Source: a bacterium (GTDB lineage Bacteria; Pseudomonadota; Alphaproteobacteria; Ferrovibrionales; Ferrovibrionaceae). From it: a stretch of 64,000 bases of DNA. Position 1 is the first letter of the stretch, and each line of letters starts with the position of its first letter. The translations under genes and the position numbers were made by a program. The stretch spans positions 1 to 64,000 of the forward strand of contig JALHMN010000001.1 in assembly GCA_022844005.1 (NCBI GenBank), given 5' to 3'. The notes below the pieces were generated by a model. It searched no databases, was not told the origin of the DNA, and saw only the letters and a list, made by a program, of their open reading frames with translations. Positions 12,834 through 21,949 of the stretch are shown piece by piece.

Positions 12834-13272
12834 CGCCTGCTCTCCCCGTTGCGATCGAATGGCTTAGCGGCAGTTTAGTGAGCGGCAAGGGGCGGCGCCA
12901 GTTGAGAGCGTCGGGCGGACGCGCTGCGGGCCGTGCACGCCGTCGGTCGGGGGGCTCTGTTCATGCACCGCCTGGCCAATCCGCTTGTCTGCGGAGTGCT
13001 GGCACGTTGCCGCCTCATTCATTTGAGAGAGGCAGGCAATTTTACATGTCGCGCTCAATGCGTCTCGAAAAGGGCAGAGATCTTTCACTGGCGCAGTCCT
13101 TGCGTAAACGAACTGTAACCGTCAACCGGCAGATCGCGCGAAACGATAGACGTCGAGCGGGATTCTCGCCGCCTCCGGGTAACGGTGCGGTATAGGGTCA
13201 AAGTGGAGGACCATGACGGCGATGGGCGTCTCGATACTCCCTGTGCTTTCCGCGCGGGCCTGAGACTTCGGG
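12834..13272. other. 439-nt intergenic region before the cytochrome operon
   Basis: Holds the divergent promoters of the dienelactone hydrolase gene and the cytochrome operon. The part from about 13015 to 13120 is less G/C rich (CATTTGAGAGAGGC, GGCAATTTTACATG) and is a likely promoter zone. No FNR-type TTGAT-N4-ATCAA box was found. Near its right end is a short frame with a strong ribosome-binding site, listed separately. No RNA gene was recognised. Confidence 0.45.
13213..13263 (+). CDS. Possible 16-aa leader peptide before cytochrome gene
   Basis: ATG preceded by AGTGGAGG at ideal spacing, encoding MTAMGVSILPVLSARA and then TGA. It is in the same reading frame as the downstream cytochrome and stops 9 nt before its ATG, whose own ribosome-binding site is weak (ACTTCGGG). 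It could couple translation into the cytochrome, act as a leader, or be chance. No tandem regulatory codons are visible. Confidence 0.3.
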   Translation: MTAMGVSILPVLSARA

Positions 13273-15087
13273 ATGGGCATCCGGGCGGCGGGACTTTTCC
13301 TGCTGGGCATCCTTGCGTTCATCTCGATGCTTGTCGTCGCCCCGGGCAGCGAAGCCCAGACCCAGCCGTCGACCACCGCCGCGCCGGGAACCTTCCAGCA
13401 GGATCCCTCGGCGCATGGCGCGGGTGGCGACCCGCATGCCGCCGCCTTCGCCGAGACGCCGTTTCCCAGCGCCACCGTCTGCGCGACCTGCCACCCCAAG
13501 GTCTTCACCGAATGGGCGGCGTCGAACCACGCCTATGCGTCGATGTCGCCGATGTTCCACAAGTTCGAGCAGGCGGTGAACGACCTGACCAGCGGCACGA
13601 TGGGTTCGTTCTGTGTGCGCTGCCATCAGCAGATCGGCACCCAGATGGGCGAGCCGCGCGAGCAGCCGCTGTGGGAGCGCTCGGCCATCGCCCGCGAGGG
13701 CGTCACCTGCGTCACCTGCCATCGGGTCGACCAGCAGTTTGCCAAGGTGAATGGCGAGCGGAGCGTGCTGGCGGGCGATATCAGCCAGCCTGTCTATGGT
13801 GCCGGCACCGGTGCCGACAGCGGCCTCGAGGACGTGCTGGCGCAGAAGGATTTCTACCGCGTCGCCCGCACAGCCGGGGAAGAGGGCACGCGCATCCACC
13901 TCGGGACCATCAAGTTCGAGCAGATCTCCCGGTCGGAATTCTGCGTCTCCTGCCATCAGGTGCAGGTCAACCTGGGCATCAAGCTGGAGGTGGTCTGGGA
14001 ACAGTACCGCGCCTCTCCCGCCGCCGCCCGCGGGGTCACTTGCCAGGACTGCCACATGGGTCGCGTGCCGGGAGAGGCGAAGGGCTACGAGCGCTTCCCG
14101 ATCGCCATCGTCAATGGCCGCGTTGTCGGTGACGGGCAGGCCAAGCACTCGAACCACCTGTTTTTCGGGCCGGGCTATCCGATCGCCCATCCGGGCCTGT
14201 TCCCGTTCAATCAGCGCGCGCATCGCTGGTCGATCCAGGAATGGCTCTCGTTCAACTATCGGGCTCCATGGGGGGAGCCCGGCTGGGAAGACCGGATCGC
14301 CCGCGGCGAAGAAGCGGCGCCGGACTTCCCGACCGTGTGGCGCGAAAGGGCCGACCGCGTGGCCGCCCGCTTCATCATCGACCAGAACAAGGGCCTGCTG
14401 GAAGACAAGCGGCAATCGCGCCTGCAGGTGATGGAGAACGGCAGCAAGGTCGACGGGCCGTTCTTCGCCGACCCGCCGCAGGCCGGCCGGGCGCTCAAGT
14501 TCCGCTACCGGGTCACCAACAAGGACGACGGGCACAACCTGCCCTCGGGCTCGCTCGGCGCGCAGCCGGAGATCTGGTTCAACGTCGCGCTCACCGACCC
14601 CGACGGCAAGCGGGTCTGGGAGAGCGGCTATGTCGATGCCAACGGCGACATGGCCGATCTGCATTCCCTGGAAGTGGCCAAGGGACGGATTGCCCATGAC
14701 GACCAGCTCTTCAATCTGCAGACGAAATTCCTGACGACCAACGTCAAGGGGACCGACCGGGAGATGTACCTGCCGGTCAACTTCGATGTCGACCAGCTGC
14801 CGATGCTGCGGCCGGCGGGCCAGCCCACTTCGGTGCTGAACCACCCGCCCTTCGTGCGCATGGAAGGCCGCAGCCTGCCCCCGCTCGGCTGGCGCGACGC
14901 GAAGTACACGATCCCGGCCGAGTTCCTGCGGAAACCGGGTAAGTACATCCTGCAGAGCCGGCTGCGCAGCCGGGCCGAGCCGCTCTACTTCATGAAGTTC
15001 GTAGGCGCGACGAAGGACATGGAGCGGGCGATCAACGAATGGATGATCGACATCCATCCCTATGCCGTCGAGTTCGACGTTCGCTGA
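13273..15087 (+). CDS. Multiheme (5 CXXCH) cytochrome c, exported
   Basis: 604-residue c-type cytochrome. Signal peptide at residues 1-28 (hydrophobic core LFLLGILAFISMLVV, cleavage after SEA). Five CXXCH heme sites: C70-H74, C114-H118, C146-H150, C224-H228 and C257-H261, all in the first half, in a cytochrome c554-like arrangement. Extra His residues (KHSNHLFF) may be distal ligands. The C-terminal half (about 330-604) lacks heme sites and looks beta-rich. It is predicted periplasmic or surface-associated. The stop abuts the ATG of the outer-membrane barrel gene. An electron-transfer role is inferred; no enzyme activity can be assigned. Confidence 0.9.
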   Translation: MGIRAAGLFLLGILAFISMLVVAPGSEAQTQPSTTAAPGTFQQDPSAHGAGGDPHAAAFAETPFPSATVCATCHPKVFTEWAASNHAYASMSPMFHKFEQAVNDLTSGTMGSFCVRCHQQIGTQMGEPREQPLWERSAIAREGVTCVTCHRVDQQFAKVNGERSVLAGDISQPVYGAGTGADSGLEDVLAQKDFYRVARTAGEEGTRIHLGTIKFEQISRSEFCVSCHQVQVNLGIKLEVVWEQYRASPAAARGVTCQDCHMGRVPGEAKGYERFPIAIVNGRVVGDGQAKHSNHLFFGPGYPIAHPGLFPFNQRAHRWSIQEWLSFNYRAPWGEPGWEDRIARGEEAAPDFPTVWRERADRVAARFIIDQNKGLLEDKRQSRLQVMENGSKVDGPFFADPPQAGRALKFRYRVTNKDDGHNLPSGSLGAQPEIWFNVALTDPDGKRVWESGYVDANGDMADLHSLEVAKGRIAHDDQLFNLQTKFLTTNVKGTDREMYLPVNFDVDQLPMLRPAGQPTSVLNHPPFVRMEGRSLPPLGWRDAKYTIPAEFLRKPGKYILQSRLRSRAEPLYFMKFVGATKDMERAINEWMIDIHPYAVEFDVR

Positions 15088-16665
15088 ATGCTGTCAAGGT
15101 CCGGCCTGATCGCTCTCACAGCCTCGCTCGCCGGATTGCTGTTCGCCGAGGGGGCCCTGGCCCAGGCGCTTCGCCGCCCGGAAAGCGGGGCGCAGCCGAG
15201 CCCGCCGCCGCAGGAAGAGCATCATCACGACGATCCGCAGATGTCGCCGGAAGCCAAGCGTGTGCCGATCAATCCCGACCTTTTCGGTCGCGATCCGACC
15301 TATGAGGACCGATCTTACGATCCGAACGCGCAGTTCGAGATCTACGGCGGCAAGAAGCGGGTGGACAAGGTGCATCCGCTGCTGGAACTCGGCCAGCCGC
15401 TTTATGGCGAGGGGCCGCTCAACACCTCCTACAACATCATCGGTTCGAAGAACCTGGTTTCGCCCCAGCTCTACGTCTATGGCGACTTCCGCACCGTCGC
15501 CGCCTACAACGACAACGGGACCAAGGAGCTAGGCCAGATCGCGACCCGGCTCAATCTCGACATCGACCTGAAGCTGACCGCGACCGAACGCATTCACGCA
15601 CTGCTGCGCCCGCTGGACCGGAACGGCGACTTCACCCGCTACGAATTCGCCGGCCCCGACCGCAACCGCCGTGAGCCCGAGCGGTTGAAGCTGAACGGCA
15701 AGCCCGAAACGCTGTTCTTCGAAGGCGATCTCGGGGCCATCACCGCCGGCCTAAAGGACGAATACGTAAGCTGGGACCTGCCGTTCACCTTCGGCCTCAT
15801 TCCGCTGTTCTTCCAGAACGGTGTCTGGGTGGACGATGCCTTCCTGGGAGGCGCCTTCGCCATTCCGGCGAAGAGCGTGGCGGCGCTCGACATCTCCAAC
15901 ATGGACGTCACCTTCTTCGCCGGGGAGGGCAAGGTCTCGTCCGGCGCCATCCGCGACGGCGCCGGCAGGGTGGACGACGATGGCGCGACCATCTTCGGCG
16001 CCACCACCTTCATCGAGGCATTGGGCGGGTATATCGAGGCGGGCTACGGTTATACCCAGGACCGGCGGCCGGGCGTCGCCGATTTCAGTTACAACAACGC
16101 GACCGCCGCCTTCACCCGGCGCTATGGCGGCTGGCTCTCCAACAGCGTGCGGCTCATCTACAACTGGGGCCAGGAACCGCGCAACGCGGCGAAGACCGCC
16201 GACGGCTTCGTCCTCCTGGTTGAAAACTCCTTCGTCACCGCGCTGCCCTCGACGCTGGTCCCCTATGCGAATTTCTTCGTCGGCAGCGAGCGGCCGCAAT
16301 CGCTGCTGCGGGACGCCGGGGCAGGCGGCGTGCTGAAGAACACCGGCCTCAACTTCGAAACCGACAATCTGACCGGTTTCCCCAAGCTCGACGATTCCGC
16401 CAACGACACCTTGGGCGGCGCGATCGGCCTGCAGTACCTGTTCGACCTGAACCAGCAGATCGTGGTCGAGGCGGCGGCGCTGCAGGTGATCGGGGCCGAG
16501 AACAAGCCTGGTCGGCTCGCCCGGGGCGACCAGTACGCGATCGGCTTCCGCTACCAGATTCCGATCACAAATGCGTGGATCTTCCGGATGGACGGCATCT
16601 GGGGTTGGCTCGACGAGGCGCCCGACGTGCGTGGAGCCCGATTCGAAGTGCGGCGCAAGTTCTGA
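15088..16665 (+). CDS. Outer-membrane beta-barrel protein in cytochrome operon
   Basis: 525-residue protein with a signal peptide (cleavage after residue 25, GALA-Q). A short His/Asp-rich segment, EEHHHDDPQ, follows (about residues 47-55). The remainder alternates polar and hydrophobic residues in beta-strand fashion (for example QLYVYGDFRTVAAYN and YIEAGYGYTQD) and the last residue is Phe (FEVRRKF), the typical signature for barrel insertion. I do not recognise it as MtrB or PioB, which are longer, and it lacks an obvious CxxC. It is sandwiched without gaps between two multiheme cytochromes, suggesting a porin sheath for electron transfer or a substrate porin. Confidence 0.75.
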   Translation: MLSRSGLIALTASLAGLLFAEGALAQALRRPESGAQPSPPPQEEHHHDDPQMSPEAKRVPINPDLFGRDPTYEDRSYDPNAQFEIYGGKKRVDKVHPLLELGQPLYGEGPLNTSYNIIGSKNLVSPQLYVYGDFRTVAAYNDNGTKELGQIATRLNLDIDLKLTATERIHALLRPLDRNGDFTRYEFAGPDRNRREPERLKLNGKPETLFFEGDLGAITAGLKDEYVSWDLPFTFGLIPLFFQNGVWVDDAFLGGAFAIPAKSVAALDISNMDVTFFAGEGKVSSGAIRDGAGRVDDDGATIFGATTFIEALGGYIEAGYGYTQDRRPGVADFSYNNATAAFTRRYGGWLSNSVRLIYNWGQEPRNAAKTADGFVLLVENSFVTALPSTLVPYANFFVGSERPQSLLRDAGAGGVLKNTGLNFETDNLTGFPKLDDSANDTLGGAIGLQYLFDLNQQIVVEAAALQVIGAENKPGRLARGDQYAIGFRYQIPITNAWIFRMDGIWGWLDEAPDVRGARFEVRRKF

Positions 16666-18029
16666 TGCGCGCGCTTCTTCTCGGCCTCCTGCTGGTCGCC
16701 ACTTCCGGCGGCGTGCTCGGGGCACAGACGTTGCCGCAGCAGGGCAGTGCGGTCCATCTGGGCACCGCCACCTGCGGTGGATCGACCTGCCATGCCTCCA
16801 CCCAGCCGTGGAAGAACTCGATGGTGCTGCAGAACGAGTTCGTCACCTGGTCGACCAAGGATCGCCATGCCAGGGCCTATGGTTCGCTGGTCAGCGTGCT
16901 CGGCAAGCGCATCGCCGCCAATCTCGGCCTGCCCAACGCGCATGAAGCGAAAGTCTGCCTGGACTGTCATGCCGACAACGTGCCGGAAGGGCGGCGGTCG
17001 AAACAGTTCGCACTGACCGATGGGGTCGGCTGCGAATCCTGTCACGGCGGGGCGGAGCGCTGGCTCGGCCAGCATGTCTCGGGGACCGGCGGCCATGCGG
17101 AGAACGTGGCCGCCGGGATGTTTCCGACCGAGGACTCCGCGTCTCGCGCGCGGCTCTGCCTGTCCTGCCATTTCGGCGACGAAAACAAGTCGGTCACGCA
17201 TCGCATGCTGGGTGCCGGCCATCCGCGCCTGCGCTTCGAACTCGACACTTTCACGGCGGCGCAGCCGGCGCATTACCGCGTCGACGACGACTTTTTCAAG
17301 CGCAAGCCCTCGCCTACCGGGGTTCAGGTCTGGACCATCGGCAAAGCGATGCAGGTGCGCAGCTTCATGAGCATGCTGGCCGATCCGAAGCGAAACCAGG
17401 ATGGCCGTTATCCCGAACTCGCCCTGTTCGACTGCCAGGCCTGCCACCACCGCATCGACGGCGAGGCGATGCCGCGGCCGCGGGCGGCGCTCCCGGGCCG
17501 CAGCAGCCCGCGCCTGAACGAATCGAGCCTGGTGATCCTGCAGGTGATCGCCGACCAGACGAAGCCCGAGATGGGCACGTTGCTGCGCCGGCAGACCGCC
17601 GCGCTGCGCAGTGCCGCGACGAGCAGCATGGGCGCGCTCGCCGCCGCCGCCCAGGCGATCGCCGACAGTGCCGGGGCGATGGTCGATCACCTGGCCCAGT
17701 ATCCGTTCCGGCCGGGCGAGTATGCGGCCCTCCTCGGCGGGGTGCTCGATCAGGCCGATGTCGCCGGCTTCGACGACTATGCCGGAGCCGAGCAGGCAAC
17801 CATGGCGATGTCGGCCATCATCACCGAAATGGACCGCATCGGCCTCTTGAGCGGGGACCAGCGGACGCGCATGGCGGCGGAGCTGGAGAAGGCCTACAGC
17901 GCCGTCGACAGCGACATCGCCTTCAGCCCGCAGATCTTCGTCGCCGCCCTCCAGGGCATCGCGCGGGCACGACCCATACCGCCCGTGCCGGCACGGCGCT
18001 CCTATCTCGTCCCCGGGGTGCGCCGCTAG
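16665..18029 (+). CDS. Second multiheme cytochrome c, exported
   Basis: 454-residue cytochrome starting MRALLLGLLLVATSGGVLGA (signal peptide). The ATG overlaps the barrel gene stop by one base (TGATG). Heme sites: an unusual C37-x4-C42-H43, then C98-H102, C123-H127, C165-H169 and C257-H261. The block from HRMLGAGHPRLRFELDTF is one I recall from cytochrome c family proteins that accompany c554-like cytochromes. The C-terminal third is helical and Ala-rich without heme sites. It is predicted periplasmic. Its stop overlaps a convergent TetR gene by 4 nt. Confidence 0.88.
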   Translation: MRALLLGLLLVATSGGVLGAQTLPQQGSAVHLGTATCGGSTCHASTQPWKNSMVLQNEFVTWSTKDRHARAYGSLVSVLGKRIAANLGLPNAHEAKVCLDCHADNVPEGRRSKQFALTDGVGCESCHGGAERWLGQHVSGTGGHAENVAAGMFPTEDSASRARLCLSCHFGDENKSVTHRMLGAGHPRLRFELDTFTAAQPAHYRVDDDFFKRKPSPTGVQVWTIGKAMQVRSFMSMLADPKRNQDGRYPELALFDCQACHHRIDGEAMPRPRAALPGRSSPRLNESSLVILQVIADQTKPEMGTLLRRQTAALRSAATSSMGALAAAAQAIADSAGAMVDHLAQYPFRPGEYAALLGGVLDQADVAGFDDYAGAEQATMAMSAIITEMDRIGLLSGDQRTRMAAELEKAYSAVDSDIAFSPQIFVAALQGIARARPIPPVPARRSYLVPGVRR

Positions 18030-19939: not shown

Positions 19940-21129
19940 CCATGACCCAGGAGATCGTGCTGGCGGCGGGCGCGCGCACGCCCTTCGGCGACTTCGGCAA
20001 GGCGCTGCGCGAGGTGCCGCTCACCGATCTCGCCGCGCATGCCGCACGGGCGTCCATATCCCGCTCCGGGTTGAAGCCCGTCGATTTCGACCACTTCGTC
20101 TTCGGCAGCACGCTGTTTCCCGACCGCGATACGCTGTTCGGCGGCCGGGTGGTCGGCATCAAGGCGGGCTTGCCGGAAGAAGTGCCGGCCCTGAACGTCA
20201 TTCGCGCCTGCGGCACCGGCCTGCAGGCGTTGATCTCGGCCGGCCAGCAGATCAAGGAGGGACAAAGCGAGATTGCCTTGGCTGGCGGCGGTGAGAATTA
20301 CAGCCGCATGCCTCATGTCGTGACGACTGCACGCTATGGCCGCAAGCGCGGCCCACAGGTTCTGGAAGACCAGCTCGACTGGGCCTATCGCTGCCCGTTC
20401 AGCCAGGAATACATGGGCGAAACGGCGGAAAACCTGGCCGAGGAGTTCCAGTACGAACGCGCGCCGATGGACGATTGGGGCTTCATGAGCCAGCAGCGCG
20501 CCGGCGCGGCGATCGACTCGGGCTTTTTCGCCCGCCAGATCGCCCCGATCGAGGTGCCGGACGGGCGCGCCACGCGCCTCTTCGCGGTGGATGAATTTCC
20601 TCGCCCGGATGTCACACGGGACAAGCTCGCAAAGCTGAAACCCGCCTTTCGCGAGGCGGGGAGGGTGACTGCCGGCTCATCGTCGGGCGTGACCGACGGC
20701 GCCGCCTTCCTGGTGGTGGCGGATCGCGGCGCGGCGGAGGCGAAAGGCCTCCTTCCGGAAGCCCGTATGGTCGACTGGACGGCCGTCGGGGTGCCGCCGC
20801 GCATCATGGGGGCGGGCCCGGTGCCGGCCATCGCCAAGCTGCTGCAGCGTCAGGGCCTGAAGGTCTCCGACATCGACTATTTCGAGATCAACGAAGCTTT
20901 CGCGGTGGTCAACCTGCATGCCGAGCGCCAGCTCGGCATCCCGCGCGAGCGCACCAACCTCTATGGCGGCGGCATCTCGATCGGCCACCCGCCGGGGGCC
21001 ACCGGCGTGCGCATGAGCATCACCGCCATGCATCATCTGGCCGACAGCCGCGGCAAATACGCCGTGATTTCCATGTGCCTGGGCGGCGGCCAGGGCATGG
21101 CGATGTTGCTCGAAAACCTGCGGCGCTGA
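19936..21129 (+). CDS. Acetyl-CoA acetyltransferase / thiolase family protein
   Basis: 397-residue thiolase. The nucleophilic Cys92 lies in RACGTGLQA; NEAFAVVN, the GGGISIGHPPGATG loop and the C-terminal CLGGGQGMA supply the remaining active-site residues. It catalyses reversible Claisen cleavage or condensation of 3-ketoacyl-CoA. The start MTMTQEIVLAAGARTPFG overlaps the P450 stop, so both are translationally coupled and probably share a pathway in which the P450 hydroxylates and beta-oxidation follows. GHPPGATG differs from the commoner GHPIGATG at one position. Confidence 0.93.
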   Translation: MTMTQEIVLAAGARTPFGDFGKALREVPLTDLAAHAARASISRSGLKPVDFDHFVFGSTLFPDRDTLFGGRVVGIKAGLPEEVPALNVIRACGTGLQALISAGQQIKEGQSEIALAGGGENYSRMPHVVTTARYGRKRGPQVLEDQLDWAYRCPFSQEYMGETAENLAEEFQYERAPMDDWGFMSQQRAGAAIDSGFFARQIAPIEVPDGRATRLFAVDEFPRPDVTRDKLAKLKPAFREAGRVTAGSSSGVTDGAAFLVVADRGAAEAKGLLPEARMVDWTAVGVPPRIMGAGPVPAIAKLLQRQGLKVSDIDYFEINEAFAVVNLHAERQLGIPRERTNLYGGGISIGHPPGATGVRMSITAMHHLADSRGKYAVISMCLGGGQGMAMLLENLRR

Positions 21130-21151
21130 GCCGGAAGCGGCCTTCTCGGCG

Positions 21152-21179
21152 CTCGCCCCACCCGGCGGGGTGGGGCGAG
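21152..21179. terminator. 12-bp perfect stem hairpin after thiolase gene
   Basis: CTCGCCCCACCC (21152-21163), loop GGCG, GGGTGGGGCGAG (21168-21179), starting 23 nt after the thiolase stop. There is no T-run on the plus strand (AATCGAAAAAG follows), so it is a probable 3'-end stabiliser or weak terminator rather than a textbook one. Confidence 0.5.
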
Positions 21180-21298
21180 AATCGAAAAAGCCTTCACATG
21201 GGCCATCGATTGACGGCCCGGCATGCGCTATAGAACGAAAGCACCGCTCGCGCGTTTCGGGGGCGGGACCAGGCTTCGAGAGGCGAAAGCGGAGAGCG

Positions 21299-21949
21299 AT
21301 GAGTAAAGGGCGGGATCGCGGACCCAGGCGGCGCGGATTCGACGACGACATGTATTCCCCCCGCGATGCGGGCAGGGATGTACCGGCGTTTCGCAGTCCG
21401 CCCAGGTTCGATGCGGCACCGGCGGGCGCGCCGGCCGGTCCTTCTGCGGAAGCGACCGTGAAGTGGTTCAATCCGGAAAAAGGCTTCGGCTTCGTCGAAC
21501 TGGCCGATGGCTCGGGCGATGCCTTCCTGCATATCGGCGTGCTGCAGAGCGCCGGGCATGAAGCTGTCGCCCCCGGGGCGAAGCTCAAGGTGCAGATCGG
21601 TCAGGGCCAGAAAGGCCGGCAGGTCGCCGCCGTGCTGGAGGTCGATGCGAGCACGGCGACGGCGCCGGCGGCACGGCCTTCGGGTGGCCCGCGTGGCGGC
21701 GCCCCAGGCGGCCGCGAACGGCCCGACCCCTCGACCGCCATTCCGCTCGACGGTGTGATCAAGTGGTTCAATCCCGAGAAGGGATTCGGCTTCGCGGTCA
21801 CCGACGACGGCGGCAAGGACGTCTTCGTCCATATCGCCGTGCTGGAGCGCGCGGGCCTGCGTGAGCTGCCCGAGGGGCAGAAGGTTTCGATGCGCGTCGT
21901 ACAGACCCAGAAGGGTCGCGAGGCGATCTCGATCTCGCTGGCGGACTAG
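21299..21949 (+). CDS. Double cold-shock-domain protein
   Basis: 216-residue nucleic-acid-binding protein with two cold-shock domains. A basic, disordered N-terminus (residues 1-45, SKGRDRGPRRRG) precedes CSD1 (about 50-115), which shows VKWFNPEKGFGFVEL (RNP1) and DAFLHI (RNP2). A Pro/Ala/Gly linker leads to CSD2 (about 145-215) with IKWFNPEKGFGFAV and DVFVHI. Tandem-CSD proteins are common in alphaproteobacteria and bind RNA or ssDNA as chaperones. The ATG follows GGAGAGCG. A long 5' leader is possible, consistent with post-transcriptional control of csp genes, but no structure was verified. Confidence 0.93.
   Translation: MSKGRDRGPRRRGFDDDMYSPRDAGRDVPAFRSPPRFDAAPAGAPAGPSAEATVKWFNPEKGFGFVELADGSGDAFLHIGVLQSAGHEAVAPGAKLKVQIGQGQKGRQVAAVLEVDASTATAPAARPSGGPRGGAPGGRERPDPSTAIPLDGVIKWFNPEKGFGFAVTDDGGKDVFVHIAVLERAGLRELPEGQKVSMRVVQTQKGREAISISLAD

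Follow-up and report, generated by a model that had tools for sequence, protein, structure and literature searches.

The 64,000-nucleotide stretch analyzed here (the window), from a member of the Ferrovibrionaceae, contains three co-directional genes, cytA, barB and cytC, which probably encode the outer module of a trans-envelope electron-transfer system of the PCC4 type. According to He et al. (2017; PMC5566968), PCC4 is a putative cluster, proposed from a limited genome set in 2017, in which a porin is encoded with periplasmic cytochromes carrying 4, 5 and 10 CXXCH motifs, with the membrane protein IMP, which has two WX3HX13H motifs and SGxxG, and with further flavin and Fe-S proteins. Hyphomicrobium, Zetaproteobacteria, other Alpha- and Gammaproteobacteria and Planctomycetes are named there as hosts.

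Read directly from the window, the three genes have no spacer: the stop codon of cytA abuts the ATG of barB, and barB and cytC overlap in TGATG, the A being common to both. The original prediction had described this gapless run correctly except for its start at 13213, as the true ATG of cytA lies 60 bases later (13273). By eye, all three proteins have a Sec-type signal at the N-terminus and none has a lipobox. We found five CXXCH motifs in cytA (residues 70, 114, 146, 224 and 257; 0.004 expected by shuffling) and four in cytC (residues 98, 123, 165 and 257; 0.007 expected). The five haem sites formerly assigned to each cytochrome therefore hold for cytA, and for cytC only if a variant CX4CH site is counted. 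Both proteins match the Cytochrome_C554 family (PF13435, cut-off 20.8 bits) with 36.7 bits for cytA and 42.4 bits for cytC. Beyond the five motifs, exactly five histidines of cytA (86, 209, 295, 306 and 421) are invariant in 62 of 62 homologues. Five further invariant histidines for five haems suggest, on sequence grounds, bis-His ligation throughout, and the number is what electron-transfer haems that are all bis-His and six-coordinate would require.

To place the genes in a wider context we relied on a scan of relatives with one genome per species, which confirmed 170 barB relatives in Pseudomonadota, Planctomycetota, Verrucomicrobiota and Myxococcota and from which 80 loci were kept; organism names are those of metagenome-bin records and some are doubtful. 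A cytA gene lies directly upstream of every barrel in the loci examined for which enough upstream DNA is available; the four barrels that lack it start close to or right at the end of a contig. Of 240 alphaproteobacterial genomes, 20 are cytA-positive, each with an adjacent barB, and three have barB only, their barrels lying either at contig ends or on a single short contig. The cytA-barB pair is thus kept across at least four phyla. Conservation across alphaproteobacteria, proposed as a check in the original prediction, is borne out in the form of this adjacency; the opposite case named there, a substrate porin lacking conserved cytochrome neighbours, does not apply, as the barrel has a substrate-porin-like fold but its adjacency to cytA is conserved. 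A divergent clade of pairs (L008 and L009, genomes G033 and G024), with barrels 23-29% identical and cytA about 40% identical, indicates that the pair family is broader than the 80 kept loci; L008 also has a PCC4-type gene set.

The conserved companions of the pair are an FHA-decahaem cytochrome, IMP, a cNMP/Fe-S protein, a tetrahaem c554-like (or cytC-like) cytochrome and an NAD/2Fe-2S reductase, and IMP carries two WX3HX13H motifs and [ST]GxxG in 42 of 42 cases in the related loci. Three arrangements occur. In form (a) the order is c554-type tetrahaem cytochrome, cNMP/Fe-S protein, IMP, FHA-decahaem, cytA, barB and NAD/2Fe-2S reductase; judged by its genes, this is the PCC4 of He et al. (2017), because it has the same porin, the 4-, 5- and 10-haem cytochromes and the IMP motifs. 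A PCC4-type gene set is also present in a Mariprofundus locus (Zetaproteobacteria, L065), whose barrel is 46-47% identical. In form (b) a first unit of cytC, cytA and barB adjoins a second unit in the opposite direction, which consists of the decahaem, IMP and a Pyr_redox-cNMP-Fer4 protein, and these loci have no NAD/2Fe-2S reductase. In form (c), seen in many Planctomycetota and in Marinobacter, cytA-barB has no further member in the stretch examined. In the tree the window groups with Ferrovibrio (L010) and with L049 and L053, all of the cytC type (support 98/87); the type requires 2 changes on the tree vs 9.5 with shuffled labels and may have arisen once. The Ferrovibrio relative has the outer and inner genes side by side. 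The order A-B-C of the window is unusual, since cytC lies upstream of cytA in other loci. As a side observation, the pair of Marinobacter sp. CHS3-4 (L066:5964-14282) is flanked on both sides by caspase-like (Peptidase_C14) genes, one of them with WD40 repeats, and no other PCC4 genes were found near it.

In the window no open reading frame of at least 100 codons apart from the trio has more than one CXXCH, so there are no further multihaem genes. A second contig of the same genome, C42, encodes together a decahaem, IMP (20535-21353, with motifs WLSAHVYLGLALIVVATLH and WLYVHVPLSFGLLAALITH and SGVFG) and a fused Pyr_redox-cNMP-Fer4 protein. From these inner-module genes we read the trio on the window's contig (C1) as one half, the outer one, of a PCC4 that is split and has its inner half on C42; C1 and C42 could belong to one chromosome at some distance. 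The components of PCC4 are largely recovered: the porin and a multihaem cytochrome are encoded together (cytA-barB), the 4, 5 and 10 haem motifs are provided by cytC, cytA and the C42 decahaem, with the extra CX4CH of cytC as a departure, and the C42 copy of IMP has the same motifs as its relatives. The genes do not form one cluster, and we regard the split as a variant because clustering was the means of discovery and not a functional criterion. A PCC4-type NAD/2Fe-2S reductase was not found in the window's genome and two relatives, where only distant family members (22-32% identical) occur. The earlier proposal of a porin-cytochrome conduit thus stands in so far as the barrel and the exported cytochromes form one redox unit, strongly supported by the conservation of the pair and by the inner-membrane electron-transfer module co-located in relatives; it changes in that the trio would be the outer half of PCC4, with the inner half elsewhere and a barrel of substrate-porin size.

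Two observations concern the arrangement of the modules. In the relative G002 the inner module and a cytC with four CXXCH and the CX4CH lie on one contig, and this genome also contains a remnant (L007:8778-9271) in which cytA 61-111 is joined to barB 389-502, followed by what looks like the start of a transposase where the contig ends. The remnant may reflect a true deletion, in which the outer module was lost, or faulty assembly; together with the variable relative placement of the modules it fits separable outer and inner modules. On C42, directly past the inner module and on the same strand (L106:10677-18796), follow genes for a 157-amino-acid exported protein, an HbpS-like protein (634 amino acids), a probable 620-amino-acid barrel ending in LTLTY and a multihaem cytochrome of 1308 amino acids that includes an LVIVD propeller domain. 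This side cluster resembles the group of a large decahaem with a porin of about 20 strands (PMC13264449).

The reading of barB as a barrel, based originally on its signal peptide, beta-strand alternation and terminal Phe, is supported: the protein ends in RRKF, its AlphaFold2 model (67 homologues, mean pLDDT 84) is a confident barrel with about 18-19 long strands, preceded by about 48 disordered N-terminal residues, and its nearest folds in Foldseek are outer-membrane barrels. An assignment as MtrB or PioB was rejected, since MtrB_PioB (PF11854) gave no match at E<=0.5 in the 67 aligned barrels and no MtrB entry was among the top 50 fold matches; the original prediction, which recognized neither, was right in this point. 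There was also no convincing match to porin families or, more generally, to sequences in Pfam, NCBIfam or the PDB, so that the likeness to Occ, AlgE and MOMP is one of fold and not of sequence family. The disordered N-terminus of barB contains a His/acid-rich stretch (EEHHHDDPQ, 15214-15240) that is not conserved in relatives. Elsewhere in the window's genome (G000, contig C74:12399-12713) there is a sub-threshold MtrB_PioB match (19 bits, cut-off 23), and the 856-amino-acid open frame around it is possibly a further barrel.

The AlphaFold2 model of cytA consists of a helical haem domain, then a long helix and, at the C-terminus, a beta-rich domain. This haem-less domain has a higher mean identity among homologues (0.71) than the haem domain (0.61), and residues 485-530 reach about 0.81. 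Within them, we read residues 494-524 as a likely interface, because they are strongly conserved and yet of low pLDDT. When the PDB was searched for folds similar to this model, nothing significant emerged (the best E, 0.004, belonged to unrelated beta-sandwich proteins), and PDB sequence searches with cytA and cytC returned weak c552/c554 matches only.

These features can be combined in a working mechanism. CytA would dock on barB, at its periplasmic face or at the barrel mouth, and would exchange electrons with a partner that is extracellular or enters the pore; Fe(II)/Fe(III), Mn and small redox compounds are candidates. CytC would ferry electrons across the periplasm. The link to quinones, or else to the flavin/cNMP/4Fe-4S protein in the cytoplasm, would be made by the membrane-anchored FHA-decahaem and the di-b-haem-like membrane protein with its two WX3HX13H motifs. 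Since the modeled barrel has only about 18 strands, a Cyc2-like arrangement, in which the partner reaches a haem at the pore, seems more likely than a full MtrA-like wire. The FHA and cNMP domains suggest a regulation by phosphorylation and by a nucleotide signal. He et al. (2017; PMC5566968) draw electron flow inward to quinones; the present gene set would allow outward flow too, in view of its flavoproteins of NAD(P)H type and its motifs resembling those of NOX and ferric reductases. RuBisCO, sought as a possible sign of lithoautotrophy, was found neither in the window's genome (73% complete) nor in G002 and G012, two other genomes of the family, which leaves a Calvin-cycle autotrophy driven by Fe(II) unsupported. 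A literature search on iron oxidation in Ferrovibrio yielded nothing usable. More speculatively, the trio may belong to a further conduit type, in which the pentahaem protein docks on the porin-sized barrel of about 18 strands via its conserved haem-less domain and residues 494-524 order only in the complex and gate or plug the pore. Outer and inner modules might then be separable and interchangeable, one inner module serving different outer conduits, as is suggested by the split layout of C1 and C42 beside another porin-cytochrome-like cluster.

Several points weigh against a PCC4-type electron-transfer module. Our literature search found no experiment on any PCC4. The nearest folds of barB (MOMP, chitoporin, AlgE and Occ) are substrate porins, and the diameter calculated for 18 strands leaves little room for a pentahaem domain. 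In cytA, conservation is highest in the haem-less C-terminal domain, which may have a catalytic role. The genes include neither a lipoprotein nor a cytochrome that is clearly extracellular, and the C42 inner module adjoins a different porin-cytochrome-like cluster and may serve that one instead. Some of these points lead to an alternative that we consider rather unlikely: cytA would be a periplasmic multihaem redox enzyme, supplied by the inner module with electrons from NAD(P)H via the membrane protein and the decahaem, while barB imports (or exports) a small substrate. The size and fold of barB, the strong conservation of the haem-less domain and the co-occurrence of flavin/NAD(P) and Fe-S proteins would fit such an enzyme, and c554-like and NrfA-like families include enzymes. 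On the other hand, the five extra invariant histidines suggest that no haem has a free coordination site, no NCBIfam enzyme model matched cytA at cut-off, and the neighborhoods of the related loci share no conserved gene specific for a substrate.

An insulated wire of the MtrAB kind, with the haem domain of cytA threaded through barB and the haems reaching the cell surface, has the precedent of porin-cytochrome systems and the near-universal adjacency of cytA and barB, as of MtrA and MtrB, in its favor. We regard it as improbable, as barB is of substrate-porin size and not of the 26-stranded MtrB kind: the calculated backbone diameter (textbook geometry) is 32-35 angstrom for 18 strands vs 46-50 angstrom for 26. 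Moreover, cytA has five haems and not ten, phmmer of cytA against the PDB gave no MtrA chain among its matches, decahaem models matched cytA only far under their cut-offs, and the MtrB_PioB family was not detected. That an ordinary solute porin lies by chance between cytochrome genes, without common function, is effectively refuted by the constant adjacency of the pair and its spread over phyla, even if the barrel folds like Occ, AlgE and MOMP and the local neighbors are catabolic. The electron-transfer module of the PCC4 type remains our preferred reading. The positions of the genes and motifs are given in Table 1. The trio is flanked on both sides by catabolic genes, with a molybdenum hydroxylase set, a dienelactone hydrolase and an amidohydrolase on one side and TetR, P450 and thiolase genes on the other.

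Table 1. Genes, haem sites and candidate interface of the trio (window positions).
Feature	Position	Strand	Description or basis
cytA	13273..15087	+	exported pentahaem c554-like cytochrome, 604 amino acids; ATG 13273, stop 15085-15087
cytA haem motif 1, CATCH, residues 70-74	13480..13494	+	sequence
cytA haem motif 2, CVRCH, residues 114-118	13612..13626	+	sequence
cytA haem motif 3, CVTCH, residues 146-150	13708..13722	+	sequence
cytA haem motif 4, CVSCH, residues 224-228	13942..13956	+	sequence
cytA haem motif 5, CQDCH, residues 257-261	14041..14055	+	sequence
cytA residues 494-524, candidate interface or plug	14752..14844	+	AlphaFold2 pLDDT <50 inside conserved 485-530
barB	15088..16665	+	exported outer-membrane barrel, 525 amino acids, about 18 strands, PCC4-type porin; ATG 15088, TGA 16663-16665
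cytC	16665..18029	+	exported c554-like cytochrome, 454 amino acids, 4 CXXCH + 1 CX4CH; ATG 16665, stop 18027-18029
cytC first haem site, CX4CH, CGGSTCH, residues 37-43	16773..16793	+	recurs in cytC subtype
cytC haem motif CLDCH	16956..16970	+	sequence
cytC haem motif CESCH	17031..17045	+	sequence
cytC haem motif CLSCH	17157..17171	+	sequence
cytC haem motif CQACH	17433..17447	+	fifth site, extra vs tetrahaem cytochromes of the other subtype

The genes described here form part of a sizeable, conserved redox system, PCC4, which had been put forward before as a hypothesis on paper. So far as the accessible literature goes, the cytC subtype, marked by the CX4CH site, is new; new are also the split arrangement, the two-gene core cytA-barB across phyla, the model of a porin-sized barrel and the specific prediction of an interface. 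The hosts of cytA-barB are mostly uncultured marine and groundwater lineages, but strains with records not labelled as metagenome bins, namely a Marinobacter and Adhaeretor mobilis, are also among them. Should electrons indeed cross the outer membrane via a barrel of porin size, electroactivity would extend to many organisms that are not now credited with it, and the pair, more compact than the MtrAB wire with its 26 strands, would offer an alternative to it that is open to direct structural study.

Compared with PCC4 itself, the window's genome differs in the distribution over two contigs, in a cytC that lies downstream of the barrel, carries CX4CH as an additional site and is extended at its C-terminus, and in a fused flavin-cNMP-Fe-S protein, with no PCC4-type NAD/2Fe-2S reductase found. 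The trio is like MtrAB, MtoAB and PioAB in that the gene of an exported multihaem cytochrome stands beside that of an outer-membrane barrel; it is unlike them in the strand number and family of barB and in cytA, which is pentahaem instead of decahaem and combines a c554-like haem domain with a large haem-less C-terminal domain. The cytochrome c554 family shares the haem domain of cytA and cytC, but here there is no nitrification context, and about 330 residues of cytA form a further domain. Cyc2 is a fused cytochrome-porin with one haem and 16 predicted strands, in which the donor must enter the pore (PMC8406198). In line with Cyc2, a small barrel is combined with a cytochrome in the trio, whereas the barrel and the five-haem protein are separate.

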